A stretch of DNA of 64,000 bases from Sphingopyxis sp. H073 (GTDB lineage Bacteria > Pseudomonadota > Alphaproteobacteria > Sphingomonadales > Sphingomonadaceae): contig NZ_LNSG01000011.1 of the NCBI RefSeq assembly GCF_001468395.1, forward strand, positions 1 through 64,000, given 5' to 3'. A program made the position numbers and the translations under genes. Positions 2,308 through 36,307 of the stretch are shown here, piece by piece; position 1 is the stretch's first letter; each line of letters begins with the position of its first letter. The notes under the pieces were generated by a model. The model saw only the letters and a program-made list of their open reading frames with translations, searched no databases and was not told the DNA's origin.

Positions 2308-2880
2308 ATGGTCGACAAGCCGTTGAAAATGAAGAAATCGGAACGCACGCGCGCGGCGATCGAAGCGGCCGCGCGGCGGCTGTTCGCCGAGCATGGCTAT
2401 GAGCGGACGGGGATTCGCGACATTGCCGCGGCGGCGGCGATCGATCCCGCGATGGTGATCCGCTATTTCGGCAGCAAGGACCGCCTGTTTGCCGAGGTCG
2501 CCGATTTCGACCTGGGCCTGCCCGATGTCGCCAGCATCGATCCCGCGCATGTCGGGCGGACGCTCGTCGCGCATTTCCTCGCGCTGTGGGAGGGCGACAG
2601 CGCGAACGGCGGCCTGCCGGTCCTGCTCCGTTCGGCGGCGTCGAACGAATTCGCGGCGTCGCGAATCCAGCAATTGTTCGCGGCCCAGGTGCTGCCCGTG
2701 CTGCTGTCGCTCGGTCCGCCCGCAACCGCGTCGCAACGCGCCGGGCTCGTCGCCAGCCAGATCCTCGGCCTCGCGCTCACGCGCTACGTCCTCGCGCTGC
2801 CTCCCGTCGTCGCGCTCGACCGCGAAACGATCCTCGCCGAGGTCGGCGCGACGGTCCAGCGTTACGCAATCGGCGGCTAG
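2308..2880 (+). CDS. TetR/AcrR family transcriptional regulator, 190 aa
   Basis: The N-terminal helix-turn-helix is typical of TetR: KSERTRAAIEAAARRLF, then the recognition region around IRDIAAAAAIDPAMVIRYFGSK (residues about 35-57), then LFAEV. The C-terminal ligand domain is not one I can assign to an effector. The ATG at 2308 is preferred over an in-frame ATG at 2239, which would place the start inside the operator region and add residues absent from TetR proteins. It is divergent from the flavin monooxygenase at 983-2224 and probably represses it through the GTCAAC palindromes. Its TAG stop shares four bases with the stop of the convergent regulator at 2877. Confidence 0.88.
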   Translation: MVDKPLKMKKSERTRAAIEAAARRLFAEHGYERTGIRDIAAAAAIDPAMVIRYFGSKDRLFAEVADFDLGLPDVASIDPAHVGRTLVAHFLALWEGDSANGGLPVLLRSAASNEFAASRIQQLFAAQVLPVLLSLGPPATASQRAGLVASQILGLALTRYVLALPPVVALDRETILAEVGATVQRYAIGG

Positions 2881-28414: not shown

Positions 28415-28975
28415 CTATTCGCCCGGCTGGCGGAGTTTCATCGCGGACAGCGAGCCGACATTTTCGGGGATATTGTCATCTTCGATCGCGTCGTCACCGG
28501 TGCCGCTCGCGACGCCGGTCGACCCAAAGCCTCCGGCCCCGCGGGCGGTTTCATCGAGCGTCTCGACCTCGGCAAAGACGGCGCGCTGGACGGGCGCCGG
28601 GACGAGCTGCGCGATGCGGTCGCCACGCGTGATCTCGAAATTATCCTCCGACAGGTTGGCGAGGATCACCTTCACTTCGCCGCGATAGTCGCTGTCGATC
28701 GTGCCCGGCGTGTTGAGACAGGTGATACCGTGCTTGAGCGCCAGACCCGATCGCGGGCGAACCTGTACCTCATAACCGGGCGGGATCGCCATCGCGAAGC
28801 CGGTCGCGACCGCGTGGCGCGTGCCCGGCCGCAGGGTCAGCGTTTCGGCGGCGACGACGTCCATCCCCGCTGCGCCGCCCGACGCATAAGCGGGAAGCGG
28901 CAGGCCGCCGCCGTTCGGCAGGCGCTGGATGGCGATCTCAATCGGAATTAGCGGGTGCACGGGTTGCGAGTTCAT
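28415..28975 (-). CDS. dut: dUTP diphosphatase with extended C-terminus, 186 aa
   Basis: It hydrolyses dUTP to dUMP, limiting uracil in DNA. All five trimeric dUTPase motifs are present: [29 protein letters not shown] and [10 protein letters not shown]. The usual protein ends soon after motif 5 at about 150 residues. Here about 30 further residues follow, acidic then basic ([15 protein letters not shown]). The ATG at 28975 lies inside the coaBC 3' end (38-base overlap), so it is translated from the same message. Confidence 0.93.
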
Positions 28976-30200
28976 CGGCGATCTTTTCCATCAATTTGCG
29001 GGCGACCGCGTTTTTGGGCAGCCGGTCCCAACTATCTACGCCTGCTTTGCTAACGATATGTACCCGGTTCGTCTCGCCCCCCATCGGGTCGACCGAGACG
29101 TCGTTGGCGACGATCCAGTCGCAGCCCTTGCGTGCGAGCTTGGCCTCGGCATGCGCGATCACATCGTTGGTTTCGGCGGCGAAGCCGATCAGCAGCGGCG
29201 GGCGCTGCGGGCTTTTCGCGACGCTGGCGAGAATATCGGGATTCTCGGCGAGCGCCAGCGGCGGCACGGCGCCGCTGCCGTCTTTCTTGATCTTTTGCGG
29301 CGCGGTGTCTGCCGCACGCCAGTCGGCGACCGCAGCAACCATGATCGCGGCGTCGACCGGCAGGCCCGCTTCGACCTCGGCCGCCATCTCGCGCGCGGTC
29401 TCGACATCGACCCGGATCACTCCGGGGGGCGTCGGCAGATCGACGGGGCCGGCGATCAACAGCACCTCGGCGCCCGCTTCGGCGGCGGCGGCGGCGATCG
29501 CGAAGCCCTGCTTCCCGCTCGAGCGGTTGGCGATGTAGCGCACCGGGTCGATCGGCTCGTGCGTCGGGCCGGCGGTTATCAGGATGCGGCGGCCGAACAG
29601 CGGGCGATGGCTCGCGGGCGCGAAGTCGGGCTGGCCGGCGAGCGGGATCGGGGCGGGCGCGTTGGCGAGCGTCCGGTCGATCGCCGCCTTGATCGCTTCG
29701 GGTTCGGGCAAGCGGCCCGGGCCATATTCGCCGCACGCCATTTCGCCCTCGTCGGGCTCCATCACGGTGACACCGTCGCCGCGCAGCGTCGCGACGTTGC
29801 GGCGCGTGGCGGGGTGCAGCCACATGCGGACGTTCATGGCGGGCGCCGCGAGCACGGGCTTGTCGGTCGCGAGCAAAAGCGTCGTTGCCATATCGTCGGC
29901 GATGCCCGCCGCCATCTTTGCAAGCAGGTCCGCGGTCGCCGGCGCGACGACGACCAGGTCGGCCTCGCGGCTTAGCTGGATATGCCCCATTTCAACCTCG
30001 TCCTTCAGGTCGAAAAGATTTGTATATACTTTATTTTCGGACAGCGCGGCGAGCGTCAGCGGGGTCACGAACTGCTCGCCCGCGCGGGTGAGCACGCAGC
30101 GCACGACATAGCCCGACTTGCGAAGCAGCCGGATGAGTTCGATGCTCTTGTACGCAGCGATACCGCCACCGACGATGAGCAGGATGCGGGGATTGGCCAT
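28938..30200 (-). CDS. coaBC: Bifunctional phosphopantothenoylcysteine decarboxylase/synthetase, 420 aa
   Basis: It makes 4'-phosphopantetheine on the route to coenzyme A. The N-terminal flavoprotein CoaC domain shows GGGIAAYKS, the [20 protein letters not shown] segment and a [11 protein letters not shown] region near its end. The C-terminal CoaB domain has [22 protein letters not shown] (split over strands about 207-228) and AVADWR. Its start lies four bases after the ccdB stop, so on present evidence it is read from a message that includes the toxin-antitoxin genes, or from a promoter inside them. It overlaps dut downstream. Confidence 0.95.
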
Positions 30201-30204
30201 CGTT

Positions 30205-30501
30205 TCAGTATCCCGTCAGCAGGACGTCGAGCGCCCCGACAATCGTGAAATGCTCGCTTTCCAGATTGGCGATCGGACGTTGCAGACGGTCTCGCGGGAT
30301 CGCGAAGATCAATTGGGTGGCCATTATCAGTTCCTCGCCATTGATGGCAAAGGCCGGGTTGAGCCGGGGAACCGGTTCAAAACCCTTGGCCGGCATGAGC
30401 GGCACCACGACACGCGTTACGAGATCGCCAAGCAATTCGCTCTGACAGTCGAGCAGATAGCCCAATCCGCGCGAGCCCGGATAAACGTCGTACCGCGCCA
30501 T
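30205..30501 (-). CDS. ccdB: CcdB-family toxin, 98 aa
   Basis: The N-terminus MARYDVYPG, LLDCQSELLGDL, TRVVVPLMP and the NGEELIMATQ segment match CcdB, a DNA gyrase poison. The length is close to the 101 residues of F-plasmid CcdB. F CcdB ends Trp-Gly-Ile, and that Trp is needed to poison gyrase. This protein ends LLTGY, so the Trp position is Thr. It may be a weakened or retargeted toxin. The ATG at 30501 overlaps the ccdA stop as TGATG. A TTG one codon earlier is not needed. Confidence 0.85.
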   Translation of the reverse strand: MARYDVYPGSRGLGYLLDCQSELLGDLVTRVVVPLMPAKGFEPVPRLNPAFAINGEELIMATQLIFAIPRDRLQRPIANLESEHFTIVGALDVLLTGY

Positions 30502-30752
30502 CAAAACTGCCGGTATTTGTCATAAGGCATGCCATTTTTGCGGATATATTCGTTCCAGCTCTCGATGGCCGCGCGGTTTTCCTCTTTCCACGCGGCGTCT
30601 CGCGCCTTCTTGACCTCGGCGGCAAGGCCGGACTGGCAGGCATCGCTGACGTTGATGCCCAGCTTTTTCGCCTCTTCGACAAGCTCGGCATTCAATGAAA
30701 CATTGGTTGCCTTTTTGGGCCCTTCGAATCGCGCTGGACGGTTCACCACCAT
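30501..30752 (-). CDS. ccdA: CcdA-family antitoxin, 83 aa
   Basis: The N-terminal ribbon-helix-helix region (KKATNVSLNAELVEEAKKLGI, split about residues 13-33) is the DNA-binding part. The acidic/aromatic C-terminal tail (AAWKEENRAAIESWNEYIRKNG) wraps the toxin in CcdA homologues. The ATG at 30752 has AAGGAG directly before it with almost no spacer. GTG codons at 30749 and 30746 are better spaced and may be the real start. A 19-bp perfect palindrome abuts the ribosome site, as expected for autorepression by CcdA-CcdB. Confidence 0.87.
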   Translation of the reverse strand: MVVNRPARFEGPKKATNVSLNAELVEEAKKLGINVSDACQSGLAAEVKKARDAAWKEENRAAIESWNEYIRKNGMPYDKYRQF

Positions 30753-30758
30753 TCTCCT

Positions 30759-30777
30759 TGCGCATAATCTATGCGCA
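30759..30777. promoter_or_regulatory. ccdAB operator, TGCGCATA-N3-TATGCGCA
   Basis: A perfect palindrome with 8-base arms and a 3-base centre lies between the ubiB stop (30791) and the ccdA start. It abuts the AAGGAG ribosome site (30754-30759). Ribbon-helix-helix antitoxins bind such inverted repeats. The gap is too short for a normal promoter without entering ubiB, so the -35 element should lie inside the ubiB 3' end. Confidence 0.7.
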
Positions 30778-30790
30778 GATCGCTCCCCGT

Positions 30791-32344
30791 TCAACCCATC
30801 CAGTTCAGAGCCGCCGCCCCGGCCGCCGCGCCTGCCAGCGCGGTCAGCGCATACCGCCACCAGCGCCGCGTCGCGCGCTTTTCCCACATCAGGGGAATGT
30901 CGGGCAGCGGCGGTGCGGGCGGCGCGGCGCCTTTCTTGGGCAATTGCTGATCGAGGCGGCGAATGATGTCGGGGATCAGCGCCAGCGTCTTGCCCTGTTC
31001 GCGGAGGCCATCGGCGAGCGCGGCTTCGGGGCCGAGTTCGTCGCGGATCCATTCGCTTACAAACGGGCCGGAAACGTCCCACATGTTGATCTTCGGATTG
31101 AGCATCGTCGCGACGCCCTCAACCATCACCATCGTCTTTTGAAGAAGGAGGAGGTGCGGCTGCGTCTGCATGTCGAAATCGCGCGTGATCGCGAACAGCC
31201 CGTCGAGCATCTGACCGACGCTGAGCTCGCTCACCGGCTTGCCACGCATCGGCTCGCCGACCGCGCGCAGCGCCGTCGCGAACTCCTCGACGCTGTGATA
31301 GTCGGGCACATATTGCGCCTCGAAATGAATCTCGGCGACGCGGCGGTAATTGCCCGTTGTCAGGCCATAAAGGATTTCGGCGAGCCAGTAGCGCGCCTGC
31401 CGGTTGATCCGCCCCATGATACCGAAATCGACCGCGGCGATCGTCCCATCGGCCTTCACGAACAAATTGCCCTGGTGCATGTCGGCGTGGAAGAAGCCCT
31501 CGGCGATCGCCTGCCGCAGAAAGGCGTTCACCAGATTGCCCGACAAGGCCTCCATGTCGTGCCCCGCCGCGACCAGCTGATCGCGGTGCGAAATCTTGAT
31601 GCCGTCGATCCAGTCGAGCGTCATCACGCGATTGGCGGTGCGATCCCAGTCGATCGCGGGCACCTCGTAAGTCGGTACGGCCGCCATCGCGTCGGCGAGC
31701 TCCGACGCCGAAGCGGCCTCGCGGCGCAGGTCGAGTTCGCGCAGCGTCCAGCGGCGGAAGTTGGCTATCACCTGCCGCGGGCGGAGGCGGCTCGCCTCGC
31801 CGCCAAGCGCCTCGAGATGCGCGGCGGCCCATTCATAGGTTTCGATGTCGCGCGCGAACTGCTTGTCGATACCGGGGCGGCGGACCTTGACCGCGACCCT
31901 GCGGCCGTCGGTCGTCACCGCCCGGTGGACCTGGGCGATCGAGGCCGAGCCGACGGGTTCGGGATCGAATTCGCTATAGAGGCTTTCGAGCGGAGCTTCG
32001 AACGTCGATTCGATTTCTTGCCGGATGCGGTCGAAAGCGACGGGCGCGAGCGCGTCCTGCAAAGTGAGCAGGTTACGCGCAGCCTCTTCGCCGACGAGAT
32101 CGGGACGCGTTGCGAGCGTCTGGCCAAGCTTGACCGCGGCGGGGCCGATCGCCTGAAAGGCCGCGGCATAGTCGGGCACCGCGGGCTGGATCGTCCCGAA
32201 GCGCGCAATGCGGCACAGGCGCTTGACCCCCGGCGGGGTCTGCGGCGCGCTCTCGATCCCGCGCAGCGCGCCATGGCGCGCGAGGATGCGTCCCCACTTC
32301 AGCAAGCGGGCAATATGGGTGATCGGTCGGGTCAAGCTTTCCAC
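30791..32344 (-). CDS. ubiB: Ubiquinone biosynthesis ADCK/UbiB kinase-like protein, 517 aa
   Basis: This atypical kinase-like ATPase supports ubiquinone synthesis. It shows the KxGQ motif (VKLGQTLATRPDLV, about residues 71-84), the Ala-rich nucleotide loop region (PVGSASIAQVH), VAVKVRRPG, and catalytic FFHADMHQGNLFV with AVDFGIMG. A transmembrane helix lies at the C-terminal end (YALTALAGAAAGAAALNWMG). The start is GTG at 32344, overlapping the end of ubiE by 13 bases. The downstream partner in many alphaproteobacteria is coaBC; here ccdAB comes first. Confidence 0.93.
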   Translation of the reverse strand: MESLTRPITHIARLLKWGRILARHGALRGIESAPQTPPGVKRLCRIARFGTIQPAVPDYAAAFQAIGPAAVKLGQTLATRPDLVGEEAARNLLTLQDALAPVAFDRIRQEIESTFEAPLESLYSEFDPEPVGSASIAQVHRAVTTDGRRVAVKVRRPGIDKQFARDIETYEWAAAHLEALGGEASRLRPRQVIANFRRWTLRELDLRREAASASELADAMAAVPTYEVPAIDWDRTANRVMTLDWIDGIKISHRDQLVAAGHDMEALSGNLVNAFLRQAIAEGFFHADMHQGNLFVKADGTIAAVDFGIMGRINRQARYWLAEILYGLTTGNYRRVAEIHFEAQYVPDYHSVEEFATALRAVGEPMRGKPVSELSVGQMLDGLFAITRDFDMQTQPHLLLLQKTMVMVEGVATMLNPKINMWDVSGPFVSEWIRDELGPEAALADGLREQGKTLALIPDIIRRLDQQLPKKGAAPPAPPLPDIPLMWEKRATRRWWRYALTALAGAAAGAAALNWMG

Positions 32345-34495: not shown

Positions 34496-34918
34496 ATGGC
34501 CCACTTTGTGACTCGGCGATGGCATTTGTGTTGCAGCGCGGTAAGTCACGGAATTCTCGCGATTCGCTAGCGTCACAAACGATGTCACAAATAATGCATT
34601 GAAATTATTGAATAAAAATTGATCTTGGCGCGATTCCTGACCCCATCGGGAGTCAAGATTTTTATTTCAGTATTTTTACATGAGCGCCCCTTGATCGACT
34701 CGGCACCGCCTGCCTAGACAGGGGTGTCGTCGGCCTTCGCTGGCGGCCGCCACATCGACATGATTCGTTCTTTTTCGGACTGCGTGTCCGGGACAGGATG
34801 CTTGCGCCCTAGGCGTGGGCTGTGACGGACCAGTATGTGCGCAGGCCGCGCGAAGCGTCTGGACGGTGGGGGACTTCAGGGGGCGACAAGGGTGATACAA
34901 AGCAGGAATCGGCATGGG
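34496..34918 (+). promoter_or_regulatory. dnaA upstream control region with GANTC cluster
   Basis: About 420 bases without a gene, with an AT-rich core at 34561-34680. Between the rpsT stop and the dnaA start there are seven GANTC sites, at 34510, 34561, 34632, 34650, 34697, 34762 and 34906. GANTC is the target of the cell-cycle methylase CcrM in alphaproteobacteria. GTCACAAA occurs directly repeated at 34572 and 34584 and inverted at 34505-34512. I see no TTATNCACA DnaA boxes, so an origin is not evident here. Confidence 0.55.
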
Positions 34919-36307
34919 ATGGACGCAAGGGATGGAGCTGTGAGTGGTGGAGACGCCGCTACGCTCTGGCCGCGCGTCGCAGAGGGGCTGCGCCGCGACC
35001 TCGGCGCGCGCACCTTCGACCATTGGCTGAAGCCGGTCCGCTTTGCCGACTATTGCGCGCTTTCGGGCGTCGTGACGCTCGAGACCGCCAGCCGCTTTTC
35101 GGCAAACTGGATCAACGAACGCTTTGGCGAACGGCTCGAACTCGCGTGGCGGCAGCAATTGCCCACGGTGCGCGGGGTAACGGTGCGCGGCGGCGCAGCG
35201 GCCGCCGACCGTGCGACCGCCCTGTCGTCGCAGCCGCTCCCCGCGTTCGAGGCGCCGCAACCGCCCCCCGCCGCGAACCCTGCCCTGCTCGGTTTCGATC
35301 CGCGCCTCTCGTTCGACCGTTTCGTCGTCGCGCGCTCGAACATTCTCGCCGCCAATGCCGCACGGCGCATGGCGATGGCCGAGACACCGCAGTTCAACCC
35401 GCTCTATCTCTGCTCGGGTACCGGTCAGGGCAAGACGCACCTGCTTCAGGCGATCGCGCAGGATTATGCCGCGTCGCACCCGACCGCGAATATCATCCTG
35501 ATGTCGGCCGAGAAGTTCATGCTCGAATTCGTCGGCGCGATGCGCGGCGGCGACATGATGGCGTTCAAGGCGCGGCTGCGCGCCGCCGACCTGCTGCTGC
35601 TCGACGACCTGCAGTTCGTGATCGGAAAGAATTCGACGCAGGAAGAGCTGCTTCACACGATCGACGACCTGATGACCGCGGGCAAGCGCCTCGTCGTCAC
35701 CGCCGACCGGCCGCCGGCGATGCTCGACGGGGTCGAGGCACGGCTCCTGTCGCGGCTGTCGGGCGGGCTCGTCGCCGACATCGAGGCGCCCGAGGATGAT
35801 CTTCGCGAACGGATCATCCGCCAGCGGCTCGCCGCGATGCCGATGGTCGAGGTGCCCGACGCGGTCGTTGCCTATCTGGTCAAGCATTTCACCCGCAACA
35901 TCCGCGAGCTCGAAGGCGCGCTCAACAAGCTGCTCGCCTACGCCGCGCTCACCGGCACGACGGTCGACCTCGCGCTCGCCGAAGACCGGCTGGCGGAGAA
36001 TGTTCGCAGCGCGCGCCCGCGGATCACGATCGACGAGATCCAGCGCGCAGTGTGCGCTCACTACCGTCTCGACAAGTCGGAAATGGCCTCGAAGCGCCGC
36101 GTCCGCGCCGTCGCCCGCCCGCGTCAGGTCGCGATGTATCTCGCAAAGGAACTGACGCCGCGCTCTTATCCCGAGATCGGTCGCCGCTTCGGCGGGCGCG
36201 ACCATTCGACGGTGATTCACGCCGTACGCACGGTCGAGGCGCTGCGCGTCGCCGACAGCGAACTCGACGCCGAAATTGCCGCCATCCGGCGCAGCCTGAA
36301 CAGCTGA
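34919..36307 (+). CDS. dnaA: Chromosomal replication initiator protein DnaA, about 462 aa
   Basis: Domain I is near the N-terminus (TLWPRVAEGLRRDLGARTFDHWL). A short Pro/Ala-rich domain II is followed by the AAA+ domain starting at FDRFVVARSN. Walker A is SGTGQGKTHLL, Walker B LLLLDDLQF, and the arginine/sensor regions include ARLLSRLSGG. The C-terminal DNA-binding domain carries the signature GGRDHSTVIHAVRTVE. The ATG at 34919 is preceded by AGCAGGAATC. A GTG at 34940 with AAGGGATGGAGCT is an equally plausible start, and a more distal start would add residues not seen in DnaA. The Walker A Gly-Val-Gly of most DnaA proteins is Gly-Thr-Gly here. Confidence 0.95.
   Translation: MDARDGAVSGGDAATLWPRVAEGLRRDLGARTFDHWLKPVRFADYCALSGVVTLETASRFSANWINERFGERLELAWRQQLPTVRGVTVRGGAAAADRATALSSQPLPAFEAPQPPPAANPALLGFDPRLSFDRFVVARSNILAANAARRMAMAETPQFNPLYLCSGTGQGKTHLLQAIAQDYAASHPTANIILMSAEKFMLEFVGAMRGGDMMAFKARLRAADLLLLDDLQFVIGKNSTQEELLHTIDDLMTAGKRLVVTADRPPAMLDGVEARLLSRLSGGLVADIEAPEDDLRERIIRQRLAAMPMVEVPDAVVAYLVKHFTRNIRELEGALNKLLAYAALTGTTVDLALAEDRLAENVRSARPRITIDEIQRAVCAHYRLDKSEMASKRRVRAVARPRQVAMYLAKELTPRSYPEIGRRFGGRDHSTVIHAVRTVEALRVADSELDAEIAAIRRSLNS

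Follow-up and report, generated by a model that had tools for sequence, protein, structure and literature searches.

A chromosomal ccdAB toxin-antitoxin module at a recurrently used ubiB-coaBC seam in Sphingopyxis, and its possible co-transcription with coaBC and dut

Toxin-antitoxin (TA) pairs have been described within the relA-mazG, dinB-yafP and folA-apaH gaps, which are presented, in the parts of a review drawn on here, as conserved yet plastic places where decay also occurs (PMC7167474). The relA-mazEF-mazG and dinB-yafNO-yafP arrangements of E. coli are like the locus studied here in that a TA pair lies inside a larger operon of unrelated genes; they are like it also in that the pair is absent from many strains, where the flanking genes then adjoin, and in that the site can hold different elements (same parts of PMC7167474). 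The E. coli ccdO157 module, between folA and apaH, shares with our locus a ccdAB pair in a housekeeping gap, a conserved place, and loss or replacement in other strains (same parts of PMC7167474).

The locus lies in a stretch of 64,000 nucleotides from Sphingopyxis sp. H073 (contig NZ_LNSG01000011.1, positions 1 to 64,000), which we refer to as the window, and its features in window coordinates are the following.

30791..32344, minus strand: ubiB, the upstream neighbour (PF03109; TIGR01982, 526.6 bits); its TGA stop codon (30793-30791) lies within the putative -35 element of the ccd promoter.
30789..30794, minus strand: putative -35 element of the ccd promoter, TTGAAC, recognized by conservation across ccd loci.
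30766..30771, minus strand: putative -10 element of the ccd promoter, TAGATT, the TA of which is kept in 39 of 39 aligned promoters.
30759..30777, minus strand: operator-like palindrome of 19 bp, TGCGCATA-GAT-TATGCGCA, covering the -10 element; predicted site for CcdA or CcdA-CcdB.
30753..30758, minus strand: ribosome-binding site of ccdA, AGGAGA, from the sequence.
30501..30752, minus strand: ccdA, antitoxin gene, 83 amino acids (PF07362, 103.5 bits against a cut-off of 22.4, E 7.6e-30).
30205..30501, minus strand: ccdB, gene for a toxin of the gyrase-poison family, 98 amino acids, type I (PF01845, 88.1 bits against a cut-off of 28.6, E 5.1e-25).
30323..30350, minus strand: candidate promoter inside ccdB, TTGCCA-16-GATAAT, with 10 of 12 consensus bases and poorly conserved.
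30201..30204, minus strand: four-base gap between ccdB and coaBC, from the sequence.
28938..30200, minus strand: coaBC, the downstream gene, 420 amino acids (TIGR00521, 414 bits).
28415..28975, minus strand: dut, dUTPase gene, overlapping coaBC by 38 bases (PF00692, NF001862).

These profile matches bear out the original prediction that ccdA and ccdB sit between ubiB, which ends at 30791, and coaBC, which starts four bases after ccdB; the outer limit of the feature then proposed, 30777, is the first base of the palindrome. The gene order on the minus strand is ubiE, ubiB, ccdA, ccdB, coaBC, dut and a ThiF-family gene, and the ccdA stop codon and the ccdB start codon overlap by one base in the sequence TGATG. 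Judged by sequence, CcdB is a CcdB-type toxin of about 100 residues, with the PF01845 match and one solved relative found, the CcdB of PDB entry 2kmt (E 1.4e-9), which we take to be from Vibrio fischeri. Its antitoxin gene lies upstream and adjoins it, as in the CcdA family; the encoded protein reaches 25.7 bits against an NCBIfam cut-off of 100, and its match to the solved CcdA 2adl is no better than E 0.07. No second CcdB was found in a search of the strain's own genome. DnaA is encoded at 34835-36307, some 4 kb away from ccdAB, and the module is therefore probably close to the replication origin; the contig end lies no more than a few kb from the locus in several closed relatives.

We consider it likely that this is an intact chromosomal CcdAB module of the type II TA class, placed at an old and recurrently used seam and served by its own promoter, with transcripts that extend into coaBC and dut, and that its CcdB types are swapped and lost over time. 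A sigma70-type promoter, TTGAAC-17-TAGATT, with its -10 element in the palindrome, would drive ccdA-ccdB, and CcdA, alone or with CcdB, would bind the palindrome and bring about repression. Transcripts from this promoter, and read-through from ubiB, would pass through ccdA-ccdB into coaBC and dut, and the supply of CoaBC would be set in part by the module's promoter. Between close relatives the slot would exchange CcdB types, the module would move between species at the seam and at times be lost, and such a loss would leave the promoter in front of coaBC, which would then use it. The module itself may be kept by selfish addiction, by anti-addiction against incoming ccd, or by phage defence.

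The distribution of the module within the genus indicates how the seam is used. A CcdB match was obtained in 39 of 80 Sphingopyxis genomes, and a coaBC match in 79; all 39 CcdB genes lie directly before coaBC, each with a ccdA, and because the same seam is occupied in 39 of the 80 genomes the pair is not a product of chance. The slot was read in 78 genomes, leaving out G044 (no coaBC match) and G075 (second half of coaBC only). Besides the 39 loci with ccdAB, 28 ccd-less loci hold one or both of a glycosyltransferase gene and a membrane-protein-like gene, four hold a truncated CcdA-like gene, four are direct junctions with no more than 9 bases between ubiB and coaBC, two hold ccd remains and one holds other sequence. 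In L063, the one locus tested, the first gene of the glycosyltransferase/membrane-protein pair matches Glycos_transf_2 and GtrA and the second has no Pfam match; the pair occurs together with ccdAB in three genomes (G014, G017 and G036). The remains consist, in G066, of only the last seven ccdB codons before coaBC and, in G021, of a promoter, palindrome, ribosome-binding site and start resembling those of ccdA; ccdAB is lost over time. These contents mark the ubiB-coaBC seam as a variable slot. In 28 of the 39 ccd loci ubiB lies immediately upstream; among the other 11, three have the glycosyltransferase pair in between, one runs off the contig, and seven have at least 0.5 kb of sequence before ccdA (L068, L083, L086, L090, L093, L094 and L122).

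The truncated CcdA-like genes at the same seam are without the toxin-binding half (54 amino acids in G041; frame interrupted in G055). The places concerned are L101:1998-2618 (minus strand) with 2679-2843 (minus strand) and L114 (G055), with tails in L080 and L123. In two of these four genomes there is an adjoining protein of about 206 amino acids, from a rare family (eight database proteins, no Pfam match) with an invariant QPDPPD...G...E pattern; this protein is possibly nuclease-like, and is a candidate for a new partner of a CcdA-type antitoxin. In a genome of another genus (G135; L332:2781-4151, minus strand) the seam is occupied by an RlaP-family gene (RNA repair pathway DNA polymerase beta family, PF10127), followed, directly before coaBC, by an open frame of 57 amino acids that matches only the C-terminal half of CcdA.

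Beyond the genus, CcdB was found in 57 of 397 genomes of a family sample, seven of them Sphingopyxis. Ten of the 50 CcdB loci of other family genera, in five genera, lie beside coaBC, and nine of these have ubiB on the other side. In a class sample CcdB was found in 32 of 385 genomes, and none of 29 loci (of 39 places listed; one of the 29, L214, is from the family itself) lies beside coaBC; use of the seam is therefore not a general feature of the class. Among the best 28 of the 104 outside-genus genomes with a coaBC match, ubiB and coaBC are at most 12 bases apart in six, 30-106 in four and 557-1214 in 12, one of the latter being ccdAB; ubiB was not found in the flank in a further six. The locus is thus a co-directional TA pair between unrelated genes that adjoin in relatives (4 of 78 genus loci; 6 of 28 elsewhere). 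The premise that ubiE-ubiB-coaBC runs directly in many alphaproteobacteria is borne out in part, by these junctions; 28 of the 39 Sphingopyxis loci without ccd hold the glycosyltransferase and membrane-protein genes at the seam. The original prediction spoke of an insertion, and as a recent event this is not supported, the site being common to 39 of 80 Sphingopyxis genomes and to five other genera; the pattern it had named as counting against an insertion, the same TA position in all relatives, is seen in part, as this shared seam. This distribution indicates that the ccd site is old and recurrently used.

A CcdB tree (84 rows, 99 columns) divides the proteins of the genus into four groups, of which types II, III and IV are well supported and type I is weaker, above all for G012; G063 and the outside rows L159, L185, L186 and L187, which are partial or doubtful, were left out. 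The tree needs five changes for the genus CcdB, but a single origin is compatible with its well-supported branches. A second tree was made from the gyrA DNA of 77 genomes (G044, G054 and G075 left out): to account for the nine states of the slot it requires 32 changes or more, where shuffled states gave a mean of 45.3, and it requires 16 or more when only the presence of ccd is scored. Since this is a tree of one gene, made by a quick method and with no bootstrap, error in the gene tree may have produced some of these 32 changes. The types differ between the close relatives G014 (II) and G015 (III), G030 (III) and G033 (II), and G011 (III) and G067 (I), where coaBC pieces are 86-95% identical and ccdB 55-57%. 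For G049 and G069, and for G040 and G049, ccdA and ccdB are 95-100% alike, with coaBC pieces at 79-90% (gapped alignments) and gyrA at 89 and 93%. In these few pairs, from 16 picked by hand, the module is more alike than its flanks, and it appears to have passed from species to species at this seam.

The C-terminal motif of CcdA follows the CcdB type in 39 of 39 modules. The tail is GMPYD with type I (9/9) and GLPLA with types II-IV (30/30), and a residue near the tail is Trp in type II (15/15) and Ser in types III and IV (15/15). Within types the median dN/dS is 0.10-0.16 in ccdB, 0.05-0.10 in ccdA and 0.12-0.19 in coaBC, of which the first 840 bases were used, and between types it is 0.39 for ccdB against 0.13 for ccdA; pairs with dS outside 0.05-2 were dropped and G063 left out, and the ratios for ccdA and ccdB are rough because their dS is near or above 1 in many pairs. 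Selection within types reads as purifying. ccdB is unbroken in 38 of 39 genomes; the exception, G063, has an early stop, likely an assembly error, since its GyrA stretch contains stops as well. Decay of the module, of the kind seen at ccdO157, was rejected given unbroken genes and purifying selection; deletions are still seen in G066 and G021.

Features of the toxin and its target were also compared. The last residues of F CcdB are important; our CcdB ends in TGY, and when it is aligned with 2kmt the match stops at TG, one residue short of the end. Replacement of GyrA Arg462 by Cys protects from F CcdB, according to the part of the source used here (PMC10886550). The equivalent position, counted by eye on the alignment, is the Arg of ILDLRL (72) or ILELRL (5) in 77 of 77 GyrA sequences read, out of 80 genomes. 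Against 14 named loci, the CcdB of this strain is 65-99% identical in five (S. soli, S. granuli, S. panaciterrulae and two Sphingopyxis sp.) and 39-51% in the remaining nine, from other genera. Its plasmid relatives number 288 records, the best 51% identical, with no Sphingopyxis plasmid among the matches listed (25 of 288). No CcdB of a PLSDB plasmid with at least 60% identity was found with types I and II as queries, and a phage collection held one distant CcdB record; on these grounds a recent plasmid origin was rejected.

The putative promoter upstream of ccdA, with the ubiB stop codon in its -35 element, has 8 of 12 bases of the E. coli consensus (counted by eye) and was unlisted by the promoter scanner; the case for it rests on conservation among related genomes. 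The palindrome pattern, loosened to allow mismatches, matched in all 39 ccd loci; with the loci anchored on it, 37 have TTG at a distance of exactly 17 bases ahead of the -10 TA, and in 35 GGAGA occurs close to the ccdA start. The TTG-17-TA spacing is kept in 10 of the 11 ccd loci without a visible adjoining ubiB (one, G065, runs off the contig), and in the same 11 the columns beside TTG are variable. Because TTG is kept where ubiB is not seen next door, the ubiB stop codon cannot explain it there. A similar palindrome lies near ccdA, the starts of which are uncurated, in 17 of the 38 ccd loci from other parts of the family and in 9 of the 28 from the class sample, against 71 and 50, respectively, of 4000 random windows of the same loci. 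The palindrome was rejected as a terminator, there being no T run after it. We read TTGAAC-17-TAGATT and the palindrome as the module's own autoregulated promoter, and CcdA, alone or with CcdB, probably binds the palindrome and represses it.

The gap between ccdB and coaBC is two to five bases in 38 of the 39 ccd loci of the genus, the exception being G063 with its early stop, and a scan of this locus found no terminator-like site on the module's strand between ubiB and coaBC. Together with the conserved promoter, these observations favour a transcript shared by ccdAB with coaBC; the one-base overlap and the four-base gap of this locus likewise suggest read-through into coaBC and dut, and read-through from ubiB is also expected. 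For a strain of the genus, S. granuli TFA, dRNA-seq is mentioned in two papers (PMC7713065, PMC7083833). That autorepression by CcdA in turn tunes coaBC we regard as an evenly balanced question. The four loci in which ubiB is joined to coaBC show that coaBC can work without a ccd promoter. A strong promoter inside ccdB, named in the original prediction as evidence against such coupling, is present only in the sense that a 10 of 12 match exists at 30350-30323; it is weak and, among the 39 ccdB genes, attains that score only in this genome, where it could drive coaBC, and in G019. Some promoter-like match of at least 9/12 is held by 11 of the 39 ccdB genes, seven of them type II with the match in the same place; at the internal site itself, seven of the nine type I genes are without a match of at least 9/12.

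Where ccdAB is absent, a ccd-like promoter is commonly found. The pattern TTGAA[CT]-17-TAA[CG][TC], drawn from the same sequences, was looked for in the 30 loci of the glycosyltransferase class and remnants, and in 27 it lies no more than 180 bases ahead of coaBC. These 27 include many close relatives and are not independent events, and the match in G079 is weak; the pattern is missing in G066, G076 and G077. In the other 382,650 bases of these loci (same strand) the pattern occurs once, as the ccd promoter of G078. Both palindrome arms are present at ccd spacing in 9 of the 27. In 20 loci the promoter is followed by AAGGAGA, resembling the ribosome-binding site of ccdA, and a start, then by an open frame of 17 codons whose TGA overlaps the coaBC ATG. 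This frame, of constant length and lying between the second slot gene and coaBC (L063, L082, L091 and others), reads, for example, MNQTQSIAARSRQACHR, and may be a leader peptide or a by-product. The ccd-like element is absent from the 130 bases upstream of coaBC in 28 loci of other genera, three of which have a TTGA-17-spaced match that lacks GCGCATA. Most simply read, the promoters before ccd-less coaBC genes were left there by ccdAB and are now used by coaBC, and their presence in most ccd-less loci hints at such use. We advance as tentative the stronger proposal that ccdAB supplied the promoter of coaBC; deletion of the whole unit would then cost coaBC expression, lineages that lost the genes would tend to keep a scar promoter, often with the 17-codon leader, and the coding part would be swapped between types.

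Several other explanations were weighed against this account. The module may only occupy a permissive gap, with coaBC driven by read-through from ubiE-ubiB or by a promoter within ccdB, and with autorepression sparing CoA synthesis; we give this somewhat less than even weight. The four direct junctions and the 10/12 site at 30350-30323 agree with it, as do, in the parts of the review drawn on, the undisturbed relA-mazG and dinB-yafP operons of strains that lack the TA pair and the judgement that TA insertion is independent of the neighbours' function (PMC7167474). Pure neutrality is, however, disfavoured by the ccd-like promoter that stands ahead of coaBC in 27 of the 30 loci that lack ccdAB, and a role for the internal promoter by the seven of nine type I genes without a comparable match. 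It is unlikely, in our estimation, that the promoter is coaBC's own in Sphingopyxis and that ccdAB slipped between the two, even with TTGAAC-17-TAACT standing before coaBC in ccd-less loci, six of which have only 28-54 bases from the -10 element to the coaBC start. We set this reading aside, while keeping it as a rival, since no such element precedes coaBC in the 28 loci of other genera and a similar palindrome accompanies ccd modules elsewhere at the frequencies given above; that nine of the 27 loci keep both palindrome arms and 20 a ccdA-like ribosome-binding site and start also speaks against it.

The sporadic presence of the module (39 of 80 Sphingopyxis genomes and 57 of 397 in the family sample) and the abundance of CcdB relatives on plasmids (288 records) would suit a single recent event in which a ccd module from a plasmid entered this lineage's operon, an explanation we hold to be very improbable. 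A single recent event is contradicted by the placement of all 39 genus CcdB at the same seam, by the remains in other genomes and by the use of the seam in other genera, and the best plasmid CcdB is only 51% identical, with no Sphingopyxis among the matches listed (25 of 288); repeated exchange between relatives may have taken place. Compatible with the preferred reading, and possible at less than an even chance, is that the seam serves as an exchange site for competing ccd alleles, in an anti-addiction arms race that selects new CcdA-CcdB types. The four types, the close relatives that differ in type (G014/G015, G030/G033 and G011/G067), the CcdA tail motif that tracks CcdB type in 39 of 39 and the between-type dN/dS of ccdB as against ccdA are in line with this, and a chromosomal CcdA that protects against F CcdB is reported in the review, within the parts drawn on (PMC7167474). 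The lack of a PLSDB plasmid with a CcdB at least 60% identical to types I or II counts against it.

Taken together, the preferred reading of an intact module that shares its transcripts with coaBC and dut would, if true, suggest that chromosomal TA modules persist at fixed sites also by holding the promoter of an important neighbour, and not by poison and antidote alone. The ccd-bearing, promoter-only and direct-junction states within one genus make coaBC expression comparable across natural strains, and the four toxin types that alternate at one seam form a natural set for antitoxin specificity.

By our comparison, ccdAB-coaBC is of the same kind as the known TA pairs in housekeeping operons. 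With plasmid F CcdAB and the CcdB of 2kmt it shares CcdA and CcdB domains, the antitoxin-first order, overlapping genes and an equivalent of GyrA Arg462 in the host; it differs from them in its distant sequence, as the scores against 2kmt, the NCBIfam model and 2adl indicate. relA-mazEF-mazG and dinB-yafNO-yafP involve other TA families, and the parts of the review drawn on describe neither an allele series nor a retained TA promoter for them (PMC7167474). Unlike ccdO157, the Sphingopyxis pair is co-directional with the downstream gene and two to five bases from it, its within-type dN/dS indicates function and not decay, several toxin types alternate at the seam, and a ccd-like promoter precedes the downstream gene where ccdAB is absent. 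No paper on this arrangement was found by title or abstract opening among the matches listed from the openly licensed literature. Relative to those parts of the review (PMC7167474), what appears to be new is the alternation of toxin types at a single seam and the TA promoter probably left on a neighbouring gene.
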